From assembly GCF_028743715.1 (NCBI RefSeq), contig NZ_CP117996.1, forward strand, positions 496,001 to 560,000: a stretch of DNA of 64,000 nucleotides, read 5' to 3'. The position numbers and the translations under genes were made by a program. Each line of letters starts with the position of its first letter. Positions within the stretch are counted from its first letter, which is position 1. The notes under the pieces are model-generated. The model made no database searches, was not told the origin of the DNA, and worked only from the letters and a program-made list of their open reading frames with translations. Positions 38,873-52,356 of the stretch are shown piece by piece. This stretch comes from Microbacterium sp. Clip185. GTDB lineage: Bacteria > Actinomycetota > Actinomycetes > Actinomycetales > Microbacteriaceae.

Positions 38873-39310
38873 GTGAGCGCGAACCTCGATGACCTCGTCT
38901 TCCGTCAGGCCCGTGTCGAGGACATCGCCCGCATCCTCGCGTTCTGGGCGGATGCGGCAGAGAACGATGCTCGTCCGTCCGACGACGCCGCGACGGTGGA
39001 GGCGTTGGTGCTCCGGGACGCGATGGCTCTCGAGATCGTCGTGCAGCAGGAGCGGGTGGTCGGCACGCTGATCTCCGGCTGGGACGGATGGCGCGCGCAC
39101 CTCTACCGCCTCGCCGTTCACCCTGAGCTGCGAGGCCGCGGGATCGCGGGTGAGCTGCTTCGTCGCGCCGAGGACCGGCTGATGCGTCTGGGAGCGAGGC
39201 GGCTCGACGCGATGGTGCTGGAGCAGAACGGCCTGGGGCAGTCGTTCTGGGCCGCCGCGGGATTCAGCCCTCAGTCCGAGTGGCGGCGGTGGGTGCGCTC
39301 CGCCGAGTGA
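38873..39310 (+). CDS. GNAT-family N-acetyltransferase
   Basis: 145 residues. The acetyl-CoA-binding motif A is LYRLAVHPELRGRGIAGELLRRAED (R-G-x-G-I-A form), preceded by beta strands and followed by LDAMVLEQNGLGQSFWAAAGF (motif B). The substrate is unknown. The last codons (RSAE and stop) lie inside the 79-bp palindromic repeat that follows, so the repeat supplies the C-terminus. Confidence 0.9.
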   Translation: MSANLDDLVFRQARVEDIARILAFWADAAENDARPSDDAATVEALVLRDAMALEIVVQQERVVGTLISGWDGWRAHLYRLAVHPELRGRGIAGELLRRAEDRLMRLGARRLDAMVLEQNGLGQSFWAAAGFSPQSEWRRWVRSAE

Positions 39311-39373
39311 GCACCCGTTTGTCGAGTGAGCACCCGATTGGATGCTCACTCGACAAACGGATGCGCGCTCGCG
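39295..39373. repeat. 79-bp palindromic repeat, copy 1
   Basis: 77 of 79 bases match the copy at 52278-52356. The core is a perfect 18-bp inverted repeat: CCGTTTGTCGAGTGAGCA (39315-39332), a 10-base loop, and its complement (39343-39360). GAGTGAGCACCCG also occurs twice directly. The left end encodes the last residues and stop of the acetyltransferase. It could act as a terminator. Confidence 0.92.
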
Positions 39374-39430
39374 GGAGGCGGTTGCTGCTTTCCGAGTGCG
39401 GGGGATGGCGCCTTCCGTGGGCGGCGAATG

Positions 39431-39455
39431 GCAACCGGTTGCGGCAACCGATTGC
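39431..39455 (+). promoter_or_regulatory. Double LacI-type operator upstream of the glucuronide importer
   Basis: GCAACCGGTTGC (39431-39442) is a perfect 12-base palindrome; GCAACCGATTGC (39444-39455) follows one base later with one mismatch. The alternating layout with central CG is typical of LacI-family operators, and a LacI gene lies in the same cluster. Confidence 0.85.
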
Positions 39456-39568
39456 ATCGTCTAACGTGATGCGCAGCACACACGACGTGCCGCCGCGCCG
39501 GACATCCCGACGGCCGGTACGAGCCGCCGCGAGTGCCCTTCTCCAATGGTGTCCAGAAGGGACAGACA

Positions 39569-48688: not shown

Positions 48689-48722
48689 GCGACGTTGTGA
48701 CATCGACGAAAGGGAAGACGAC

Positions 48723-50516
48723 ATGCTGACACCGCGTTCGAGTCGGAGCCGCGACATGAGGTCGCTGGACGGACTGTGGGCCTTTGCGCTCGACACCGAG
48801 GTCGGGGAGCGCCCGTGGGAGGCTCCATTGCCCGTGACCCGCGTGGCTCCGGTGCCCGCCAGTTACAACGACATCTTCCTCGAGCCCGAGATCCGCAATC
48901 ACGTGGGTGTGGTCTGGTACCAGCAGCGCATCGACGTCCCCGCGGGCTGGGAGGGGCGACGGATCGCGCTGCGGGTGGACGCAGCCACCCACGCCGGCAC
49001 CGTGTACGTCGACGGGCGCAGGCTCGCCCACCACGAAGGCGGCTACACCCCGTTCGAGGTGGAGTTGACCCAGGCCGTCACCCCGGGGACGTCGGCGCTT
49101 GTGACCATCGCCGTCGACAACCGGCTCACCCAGGCCACCATCCCGCCCGGGGTCGTCGGCGAGGGACCGGATGGACGCGAGACGCAGCGCTATCGTCACG
49201 ACTTCTTCAACTACGCCGGCCTCGCACGCAGCGTGCGACTGATCTCGACTCCACGGGAGTACATCGCGGACATCGCCGCGGTCACCGATGTGCACGGCGC
49301 GGATGCGAGCGTCGACTACAGGGTGAGCGTCGACGGCGGGCAGCCGACGGTGCAGGTGGAGCTGCTCGACGAGGACGATGTCGTCGTGGCGACGTCCGTG
49401 GGAGCGAGCGGCCGCCTCACGATCACCGACGTGCGCCTCTGGCAGCCCGGGGCAGCCTACCTGTACCGGATGCGGGTGCGTCTGGGTGAGGACGGCGACG
49501 TCTACGAGCAGCCCATCGGCGTGCGCACCGTCGAAGTCGTGGGGCAGCGGTTCCTCATCAACGGCGCACCGTTCTACTTCACCGGGTTCGGCAGGCACGA
49601 GGACTCGCCCATCCGGGGCAAGGGGCACGACGCCGCCGTCCTGGTGCACGACTTCCAACTCATGCGGTGGATCGGCGCGAACTCGTTCCGGACCTCGCAC
49701 TACCCGTATGCCGAGGAGTGGCTCGACTACGCCGACCGGCACGGCATCGTCGTGATCGACGAGACCGCAGCGGTCGGTCTCAACATCAACATGGTCGCGG
49801 GATTCAACGGCGACAGGCCTGAGCCGACGTTCTCACCCGACGCGATGAACGACCGCACGCAGGCCGCGCACGCCGCCGCCATCCGGGAGCTGATCGCGCG
49901 CGACAAGAACCATCCCTCGGTCGTGATGTGGTGCATCGCCAACGAGCCGGCCTCGAGCGAGGAAGGCTCCCGCGGCTACTTCGAGCCGCTCGTCGCGCTG
50001 ACACGGCAGCTCGATCCGACCCGTCCGGTGACGTTCGCGAACCAGGGCGCGGCGCGCTTCGACAACGACAGGATCGTCGACCTCTTCGACATCGTCTGCC
50101 TGAACCGCTACTACGGCTGGTACGAGATGACCGGAGACCTGGTGGCGGCGGAGCGGGCGCTCGAGACGGAGTTGCGCGGCTGGCAGAGCACATGGGACAA
50201 GCCGATCATCATGACCGAGTACGGCGTGGACACGATGGCGGGTCTGCACTCCGCGCATCCCGGCCCGTGGAGCGAGGAGTACCAGATCGAGTTCCTCGCG
50301 ATGTACCACCGTGTCTTCGATCGCATACCGGCCGTCGTCGGAGAGCAGATCTGGAACTTCGCGGACTTCCAGACCACGAGCGGTGTGGTCCGCGTCGACG
50401 GAAACAAGAAGGGCGTGTTCACCCGCGACCGGCGTCCCAAGTCGGTGGCGCGGAGTCTGCGGGAGCGGTGGACGGCCATCGGAACGACCCACGAGAAGAA
50501 GGAGAGCGGCGCATGA
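48723..50516 (+). CDS. uidA: Beta-glucuronidase (GH2)
   Basis: 597 residues, no signal peptide, hence cytoplasmic. GH2 layout: sugar-binding domain (1 to about 180, [12 protein letters not shown]), Ig-like domain (about 180-275), TIM barrel (about 276-597). The acid/base is Glu408 in WCIANEP, the nucleophile Glu499 in IMTEYGVDT. The glucuronidase-specific N-x-K-G motif (Asn561, Lys563) that recognises the carboxylate is present in VDGNKKGVF. Positions run about five below those of E. coli GusA. It cleaves imported glucuronides to free glucuronate. ATG at 48723 follows GAAAGGGAAG. The mannonate dehydratase gene overlaps its stop. Confidence 0.96.
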
Positions 50517-51751
50517 TCATCGAGAAGGCCGAAGTCATCGTCACCAGCCCCGACCGCAACTTCGTCACGCTGAAGCTGACGACGGATGAGGGGATCACCG
50601 GTCTCGGGGACGCGACGTTGAACGGGCGTGAGCTCGCGGTCGTCGCCTACCTCCGCGATCACGTGGCGCAGCTGCTGATCGGGCGCGATGCCTCGCGGAT
50701 CGAGGACACCTGGCAGTTCCTGTACCGATCGGCGTACTGGCGACGCGGACCCGTCACGATGGCGGCCATCGCCGCCGTCGACATGGCGCTGTGGGACATC
50801 AAGGGCAAGCAGGCAGGGCTCCCCGTGTACCAGCTGCTCGGCGGGGCGTCCCGCAACGGCCTGCTCGCGTACGGTCACGCCTCGGGAAAGACGACCGAGG
50901 AGTTGTTCGACTCGGTGCGTGCGCACCAGGAACAGGGCTATCGCGCGATCCGCGTCCAGACCGGCGTTCCCGGACTCAAATCCATCTACGGAATCGCCTC
51001 GAACGCGACGTACGAGGCCAACAGCGGTGTGCGATACGACCATGAACCCGCACAGCGCGGCGCGCTGCCCAACGAAGAGGACTGGGACACGCGCAGCTAC
51101 CTGCGTCACGTGCCGACCGTGTTCGAAGCCGTCCGCAACGAGTTCGGCCCGGAACTGCCGCTCCTGCACGACGCTCATCACCGCCTGACCCCGATCCAGG
51201 CTGCGAAGCTCGGCAAGTCGCTCGAGCCGTACGACCTGTTCTGGCTGGAAGATGTGTCCCCAGCCGAGAACCAGGAGGCGCTGCGTCTGGTGCGCCAGCA
51301 CACGACGACCCCGCTGGCGATCGGAGAGATCTTCAACACCGTGTGGGACTACCAGCAGATCATCCGCGAGCAGCTCATCGACTACGTGCGCTCCGCCGTC
51401 ACGCACACCGGGGGCATCAGCCACCTCAAGAAGGTGCTCGACTACGCGGCCCAGTACCAGATCAAGTCCGGGATGCACGGGCCGACCGACATCTCGCCGG
51501 TCGGGATGGCCGCCGCCATGCATCTCGGACTCTCGATCCACAACTTCGGCATCCAGGAGTACATGAAGCACGGCGCGAAGACCGACGCGACGTTCGAGCA
51601 GTCCTTCACATGGAAGGACGGCTTCCTGCACCCCGGTGACAAGCCGGGCCTCGGAGTCGAGTTGAACCTCGACGAGGCGGGCAAGTATCCGTACGAGCAG
51701 GCCTACCTGCCCTACAACCGCCTCGCCGACGGCACCGTGCACGACTGGTGA
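50513..51751 (+). CDS. manD: D-mannonate dehydratase, enolase superfamily
   Basis: Dehydrates D-mannonate to 2-keto-3-deoxygluconate. 412 residues. The Mg ligands read Asp220 (LLHDAHHR), Glu246 (WLEDVSP) and Glu272 (AIGEIFNT), with the same 26-residue spacing as in characterised ManD (210, 236, 262), and His222 matches the catalytic His. The motif [14 protein letters not shown] corresponds to the ManD active-site loop. This is the ManD type, not the unrelated UxuA. ATG at 50513 overlaps the uidA stop. Confidence 0.95.
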
Positions 51752-52293
51752 GCGAGAAGCCTCTGCCGCGACGGATCTGCGTGATGGGTGTCTCCGGCGC
51801 GGGGAAGACGACCACGGCGATGGCGCTCGCGTCGCGCCTGGACGCCGTCTTCCTCGACGCCGACGACCTGCATCCGGCGGCGAACGTCGCGAAGATGGCA
51901 GCGGGTGTTGCGCTCGACGACGACGACCGCGCGCCCTGGCTGCGGGCAGTCGGGGAGGCGGTGGCCGCGGCGGAGCATGTGGTCGTCGCCTGCTCGGCGC
52001 TCAAGCACTCCTACCGCGACCTGCTTCGTGACGCCGCTCCGGATCTCGTCTTCGTGTTGCTCGAGCCGTCGGACGACGAGCTCACCCGACGGCTCGCCGC
52101 GCGCGAGGGACACTTCATGCCGGCGAGTCTGCTGCGCTCGCAGCTCGCGACCCTCGAACCTCTCGGTCGCGATGAGGCGGGTGTCACGGTGGCCGTATCG
52201 GGCGCCGGTCTCGACGCCGTCGTGGACGCGGTCGTCGAGGGGCTTCGAGGTGCCCCGGCGGTCATTGAGGCGGCGGCGCGCTCCGCTGAGTGA
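51748..52293 (+). CDS. gntK: Gluconokinase (GntK-type)
   Basis: 181 residues, P-loop kinase of the GntK/shikimate-kinase type. Walker A is [45 protein letters not shown] is the gluconate-binding signature; [16 protein letters not shown] and [19 protein letters not shown] follow. It phosphorylates gluconate to 6-phosphogluconate. In this operon a kinase for 2-keto-3-deoxygluconate would be expected instead, so the role here is unclear. The C-terminal RSAE and the stop lie in the palindromic repeat. GTG at 51748 overlaps the manD stop. Confidence 0.92.
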
Positions 52294-52356
52294 GCACCCG
52301 TTTGGCGAGTGAGCACCCGATTGGATGCTCACTCGACAAACGGATGCGCGCTCGCG
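52278..52356. repeat. 79-bp palindromic repeat, copy 2
   Basis: Differs from 39295-39373 at two bases. The inverted repeat arms are 52298-52315 and 52326-52343 with one mismatch. It holds the 3' ends of two convergent genes: gntK reads in from the left (RSAE, stop) and the methyltransferase from the right (SAHPFVE, stop at 52329). Confidence 0.92.

Follow-up and report, generated by a model that had tools for sequence, protein, structure and literature searches.

Two near-identical palindromes bracket a glucuronide gene cluster in a stretch of 64,000 nucleotides from Microbacterium sp. Clip185 (NZ_CP117996.1, positions 496,001 to 560,000; this whole stretch is called the window and the genome G000). 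They belong to a dispersed family of palindromes, each built on four copies of a 10-bp word. The family is tied to a gene outside the window whose product is, by profile and fold, AbiEi-like in its N-terminal half and Vsr/homing-endonuclease-like in its C-terminal half. This looks like a protein–repeat partnership of a kind so far undescribed, and we found no paper on such a pairing of nuclease and palindrome in the open-licence PMC literature. The best explanation, which we consider probable, is that the protein reads the word and that nuclease-driven repair copies the palindrome to intergenic sites. The bracketing of the cluster is secondary to the dispersed family.

A dispersed family of word palindromes

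A first-pass annotation of the window had allowed that the pair might represent a dispersed element. DNA and covariance searches of the full genome, a single contig of 3.31 Mb, found the element in 22 places, each matching on both strands (four weak matches, with E > 0.9, are left out of the count), so the pair in the window is not unique. The 74-bp core consists of two 19-bp units beginning with CGAGYGAGCA, a 4-bp loop and both units again in inverted orientation. Each element carries the word four times, two in tandem at 19 bp and two inverted. The median pairwise identity among the 22 copies is 78%, and only the pair in the window (97%) exceeds 88%, the value of the next-best pair. The gaps that hold the elements are convergent for 13 copies, tandem for 7 and divergent for 2. 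Convergent gaps are 77 of 395 in 440 kb of G000, and the elements are in excess there (binomial 4.9e-5). Genes were called with our own codon-score script, and the neighbours of the copy at 3087694 are poorly called. Five copies give the neighbouring gene its ending ..AE-stop.

Both copies in the window form a long hairpin on each strand (z from -7.5 to -10.8 against 200 dinucleotide shuffles). Strong hairpins found mostly at 3' ends might be ordinary intrinsic terminators that are alike by composition. We regard this as very improbable: none of the four intrinsic terminators (hairpin then T-run) predicted between 39000 and 53400 of the window falls at either copy, the words are conserved in sequence, the family is associated with a gene, and the arms show no covariation beyond shuffles across 17 copies. 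A conserved RNA hairpin was also rejected: the arms do not covary, and the seven Rfam matches at the site, four of them to microRNA families, are all below gathering score.

Comparison with close relatives reveals that the words are kept, not the pairing of the arms, and that the sequence around the words drifts faster than the words themselves. The genome G299, ~90% identical to G000 where aligned and collinear with it in inverted order, carries 28 copies, G268 carries 24, and G150 and G259 carry 8 each. Every G000 copy except that at 548284 (copy 2 of the window) has a positional counterpart in G299, 20 by alignment and that at 202103 by place. Thirteen of the 20 aligned copies align over all 74 columns. 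In these, the two genomes differ at 22 of 468 word-core positions (4.7%) and at 19 of 52 free positions within the word, against 86 of 441 positions in spacers and loop (19.5%) and 224 of 1329 in the 60-bp flanks (16.9%). The corresponding changes relative to G268, from 10 of 16 aligned copies, are 14/360, 12/40, 38/338 and 114/991. The stretches of both relatives were selected by matches to the family model, and decayed copies could be missed. A likely remnant of an older copy at 38807-38827 of the window, with parts of the outer word joined via an internal deletion where G299 has an intact element, suggests that copies die by internal deletion. Genes for TetR and AAA proteins (named by eye; 36980-38814) occupy this element site of G299, the likely remnant being kept there. 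Further on, MFS transporter and MerR genes (by eye; 56991-58925) occupy a site that holds an element in G299 and G268.

Across the genus the word occurs in several dialects. A half-element pattern with its central triplet left free has matches in 54 of 295 genus genomes, with up to 21 per genome; its reversed control has 2 among the matches listed. The triplet varies by genome: CGAG-YGA-GCA in G000 and elsewhere CGAG-ACC/GAC-GCA, -TCA-CCA, -CCA-CCA, -ACT-GCA and others, with two word triplets sometimes in one genome. Outside the genus, the single matches in 5 of 293 family genomes are near background (2 control matches). At three loci (L315, L325 and L327, in G072 and G135), more than two words stand in tandem on one arm of the palindrome, with a period of 19 bp. 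The only candidate for different words at the same site (a 482-aa gene beside 757622, whose orthologues in G107, G086 and G072 also have elements next to them) could, on a rough estimate, be explained by chance and we do not claim it. Six gene families recur near elements of different dialects, and the nuclease-like partner gene is one of them. The other five, each recurring with at least three dialects, are by eye an ABC ATPase, two succinyl-CoA ligase subunits, a response regulator and a dCTP-deaminase-like protein.

The partner gene and its word

The partner gene (table 1) encodes a protein whose N-terminal half matches AbiEi profiles, with a weaker fold match to AbiEi. The fold of the C-terminal half matches the catalytic domain of PD-(D/E)XK nucleases of the Vsr/homing type. 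Residues E214, D246, E255, D257 and K261 are invariant in 66 of 66 homologues, as positions not aligned residue by residue to known active sites. A PDB sequence search gave no credible match. Homologues occur in 240 of 361 genus genomes (E <= 1e-30), currently under the names 'hypothetical' or 'AbiEi family antitoxin domain-containing'. As to carriage by plasmids or phages, tblastn with P0001 found no match in PLSDB or INPHARED. The gene sits between two elements in G000 and G299 (both YGA), G015 (TCA) and G172 (CCA). In G268 it stands beside one element, a deletion matching G000 805685-812630 having taken the other. This deletion (L195, 1-1640) ends 27 bp from the element at 805712, and the counterpart of the copy at 813019 now lies 485 bp from the partner gene.

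We surveyed palindromes (score >= 14, length >= 45, within 400 bp of the gene) at the 30 best homologue loci and at 40 more chosen for paralogues or carriers. Leaving out L353, L362 and L374 (short or cut) and the control loci L285 and L291, 67 loci from 47 genomes were usable. Of these, 24 have palindromes flanking the gene on both sides, 29 have one on a single side and 14 have none, giving at least one at 53 loci in 37 genomes; L354 (G299) is counted as one-sided though the element is present on both sides. As controls, none of 27 methyltransferase loci of the genus is bracketed, and among 396 genes in 440 kb of G000 there are 9 with palindromes on both sides and 79 with at least one (Fisher 1.9e-15 for bracketing on both sides). 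Two of these nine genes are themselves of this kind, and by eye the two palindromes differ in six of them.

Several tests associate the word with the protein. The left palindrome is best matched by the right palindrome of its own locus in 19 of the 24 doubly flanked loci (0 of 10000 permutations). Fifty-three proteins have a palindrome, and among these the more similar two proteins are, the more alike are their words (0 of 2000 permutations). Identity averages 67% in the 42 pairs with a common word and 46% in the remaining pairs; the signal is carried more by the N-terminal half. Five word groups (28 proteins; two of the groups near-copies) each form one side of a branch in the protein tree, and same-genome paralogues never share a word (0 of 18 pairs). 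Word and protein are inherited together. The same is visible at the scale of genomes. In G120, G190 and G170 we found the AAACCACCC palindrome 8, 6 and 9 times, two of them beside the gene in each genome, and these are the three of 16 tested genomes in which a gene with this word had been seen; 12 of the other 13 have none and G089 has a 23-bp match. The TTTGGGGCG palindrome occurs at 10, 8, 4 and 2 places in G068, G012, G155 and G380, four of seven genomes with such a gene, and in none of the nine other genomes tested.

These associations bear on whether the palindromes are a classical set moved by an unseen transposase, like miniature inverted-repeat transposable elements (MITEs) or repetitive extragenic palindromes (REPs), with the nuclease gene a passenger that landed between copies. 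The inverted arms, intergenic location and 3' bias do resemble both. Yet across many genomes members of this one protein family stand between palindromes with unrelated words, the word follows the protein, and no Y1 transposase was found in a search that covered Y1 only and no other transposase family. We consider a passenger gene improbable.

In the reading that we favour, the AbiEi-like half would read the word, several copies of the protein sitting on one palindrome, and the nuclease half would cut or nick at the palindrome or at a target. Repair would then place a copy of the palindrome, at times along with some bases of its flank, at a new site between genes. Scattered copies may last best beside convergent genes, being harmless there or helping to end transcripts, and the protein may repress its own gene via the flanking palindromes. 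Alternatively, the protein could be no more than a DNA-binding regulator whose operators are scattered: the pair around the gene autoregulates, the dispersed copies are regulatory or 3'-end sites, and nothing is copied. According to the consulted part of PMC7319586, AbiEi binds two inverted 23-bp repeats at its own promoter and Rv2827c four at its own, and the constraint on words at dispersed sites and the 21 of 22 copies common to G000 and G299 agree with such a role. However, most sites are not promoters but gene 3' ends where convergent genes meet (13 of 22, with 2 in divergent gaps), the gene has a palindrome to its left and another to its right in 24 of 67 loci, whole palindromes are dispersed, and the nuclease half has acidic residues invariant in 66 of 66 homologues. 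A regulator that only binds is unlikely.

We also propose, tentatively, that these cases form a word-coded palindrome–nuclease system, in which each AbiEi–Vsr fusion reads its own word, is bracketed by palindromes made of it and spreads or keeps them by nuclease-driven recombination without a transposase, several such systems coexisting in one genome. G000 has a second system around a DUF559 gene (774677-775546; L162, 14677-15546; 29.6 bits for a cut-off of 20.6), which is bracketed by another type of palindrome, in G299 too, with further G000 copies at 459470 and 801538.

Several observations weigh against copying by the partner protein and against the generality of its tie to palindromes. 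Because 21 of the 22 copies are common to G000 and G299 by position, copying must be rare. Binding, cutting and copying by the protein are what we infer from sequences, and copying by it is unobserved. No clean empty site with a target duplication was found: the best, near-clean one and the only one compared, at G299 2771119, has flanks that are too diverged and may leave a remnant in G000. Fourteen of the 67 homologue loci are without a palindrome at the threshold used; the 40 added loci were a hand-picked, non-random set, and the first 30 are the loci closest to the query. The tree test left out 25 proteins with single words. DNA matches to TTTGGGGCG were found in only four of seven genomes with such a gene, although the three misses may be carriers with diverged palindromes. 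A third gene of the helix-turn-helix–nuclease type, seen only in G299, has no palindromes. Finally, a 1373-aa gene at 492049-496170, the one other such case in 440 kb, is bracketed by same-word palindromes and is by eye not a nuclease gene.

Two copies around the glucuronide cluster

Within the window, the first-pass annotation had described palindromes at 39295-39373 and 52278-52356 in the same orientation, alike at 77 of 79 bases. This is confirmed, with mismatches at positions 10 and 28. So are the C-terminus R-S-A-E-stop given by the left end of both copies, where TGA falls inside the first word, and the encoding in copy 2 of SAHPFVE, the last seven residues of the convergent methyltransferase (table 1).

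Table 1. Features at the two palindromes, with the partner gene; positions are those of the window unless a genome is given
Feature	Position	Strand	Remarks
Element copy 1, 74-bp core	39301..39374		Four words CGAGYGAGCA, two tandem and two inverted, loop 4; orthologous copy in G299
GCGCTC before copy 1	39295..39300	+	Coding sequence of acetyltransferase-like gene; same bases and same gene in G299
Element copy 2	52284..52356		Core 97% identical to copy 1; apparently derived from copy 1; no counterpart in G299
GCGCTC, apparently copied	52278..52283	+	Now codes RS of the gluconokinase-like C-terminus RSAE
Acetyltransferase-like gene (named by eye)	38873..39310	+	Stop TGA within first word of copy 1
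Gluconokinase-like gene (named by eye)	51781..52293	+	Last codons and stop within copy 2
Methyltransferase-like gene (named by eye)	52329..53255	-	Last seven codons within copy 2
Block absent from G299	39374..53292		Cluster, copy 2 and methyltransferase; left edge at end of copy 1, right edge past copy 2
Partner gene, 325-aa protein	G000:C1:804591-805568		Outside the window; between element copies 804511 and 805712

The flank GCGCTC is seen at none of the other 20 G000 copies. In G299, copy 1 follows the counterpart of the acetyltransferase-like gene, whose protein ends WVRSVE, with the same coding flank. Since copy 2 carries GCGCTC, it appears to be a copy of copy 1 together with at least 6 bp of the neighbouring gene, and the RSAE ending of the gluconokinase would be borrowed. 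In our reading copy 2 is probably a recent copy, made when or after the glucuronide cluster entered. Two origins fit: copying of the element by a recombination-type process, and duplication of 79 bp on entry of the cluster.

The same annotation had placed the copies exactly at the two borders of the cluster. This holds on the left, where the block absent from G299 starts right after copy 1, but on the right the block extends 936 bp past copy 2. In G299 the end of an oxidoreductase-like gene comes within about 10 bp after copy 1. G268 lacks the whole ~30.2-54.1 kb stretch and has about 150 bp at the junction (L196 against window 28001-56991). The region is highly variable between close relatives. 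Homologues of the methyltransferase occur in 73 of 366 genus genomes (E <= 1e-60), and the same scan found no match in G299 or G268. A scan of named genomes for the oxidoreductase gave loci of at most 76% identity.

The two copies may be a trace of the way in which the cluster arrived. An ancestor whose acetyltransferase and methyltransferase genes converged on a single element between them could have received the cluster by an insertion that left 79 bp on both sides. The 6 bp of the acetyltransferase gene at copy 2, the identity of the copies (97%, against the median of 78%), the lack of the cluster in G299 and G268, and the commonest layout of the family, two convergent genes meeting at one element, all agree with this. 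Against it, neither a strain with a precise one-copy empty site nor the methyltransferase-bearing state with one copy was found: G299 and G268 have no methyltransferase match, and the G299 junction lies at copy 1 but beyond copy 2. Element sites in general are not hot spots of breakpoints either. Gene gains that abut elements had at first hinted at this, but of the 21 element sites shared with G299, 6 hold a break in the alignment, as do 17 of 66 ordinary convergent gaps, so we rejected hot spots (a stricter count places G000/G299 breakpoints at 1 of 8 element sites). The earlier idea of recombination at the copies is thus supported by the missing cluster and the origin of copy 2, and not by the end of the block. 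We view entry by such an insertion as plausible, if slightly doubtful; it would account for the pair and not for the family, and it is compatible with copying driven by the nuclease.

The window has other repeats. At 246-318 lies a member of another palindrome family, with outer word CGAGACTGCA and inner word CACGAGATCACGG, found at 8 places in the G000 sequence examined, two of which surround the 1373-aa gene mentioned above; no partner gene was found for this family. A further family (CATGTCCCACTTGC..GCAAGTGGGACATG) at 7875-7930 has 4 places in the G000 sequence examined. A 51-bp repeat has seven copies in register at 19027-19402, and a 129-bp repeat has two copies, 99% identical and 150 bp apart, at 10280-10558.

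Relation to known systems

Among the scattered palindromes of bacteria the REPs are the best studied, and they depend on RAYT transposases; the partner here is an unrelated protein. With this family it can be tested directly whether repeats can be maintained by a nuclease when no transposase is involved, and its protein–word pairs are a natural set for reading a DNA-recognition code. It also gives a possible role to proteins known only under the two names given above. For annotation, it is a caution that near-identical repeats around a gene cluster need not make the cluster a mobile unit.

As with the partner gene here, palindromes stand beside RAYT genes. According to the parts of PMC8049555 and PMC3733652 consulted, the REP/RAYT system comprises scattered short palindromes with a single-copy, vertically inherited partner gene, E. 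coli REPINs number 69-235 (both PMC8049555), and a REP is a 20-40-bp repeat with a GTAG or CGTC tag at one end (PMC3733652). The suggestion of a REP-like element was right in part: the 22 copies are dispersed and mostly at gene 3' ends, five of them giving ..AE-stop, but the partner is not a RAYT. A search for PF01797 gave no match in G000 and matches in one of 295 genus genomes (5 of 14 control genomes), and we rejected a RAYT partner; nor is GTAG or CGTC a common end of the 74-bp cores of the 22 copies. Like REP/RAYT, the family consists of dispersed palindromes tied to a single partner gene. It works like that system without being a member of it, because its palindromes have a partner gene of another protein family, AbiEi-like and Vsr/homing-type nuclease-like instead of a Y1 transposase. 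Unlike REPs and REPINs, it has palindromes of ~65-90 bp, each with four words spaced at 19 bp, and our searches gave 2 to 28 copies per genome.

MITEs are short inverted-repeat elements that stand in trans to a gene with the same ends. The palindromes are likewise short inverted-repeat elements, but almost the whole element is palindromic and the genome has no Y1 transposase (other families were not searched). The AbiEi profile in the N-terminal half recalls AbiEi antitoxins of type IV toxin–antitoxin systems, which bind tandem inverted repeats according to the same part of PMC7319586. Unlike in these antitoxins, a nuclease-like domain follows, and palindromes flank the gene on both sides and scatter over the chromosome. 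Unlike Vsr, DUF559 and the homing endonuclease I-Bth0305I, the protein, whose nuclease activity is predicted, is tied to dispersed word palindromes.

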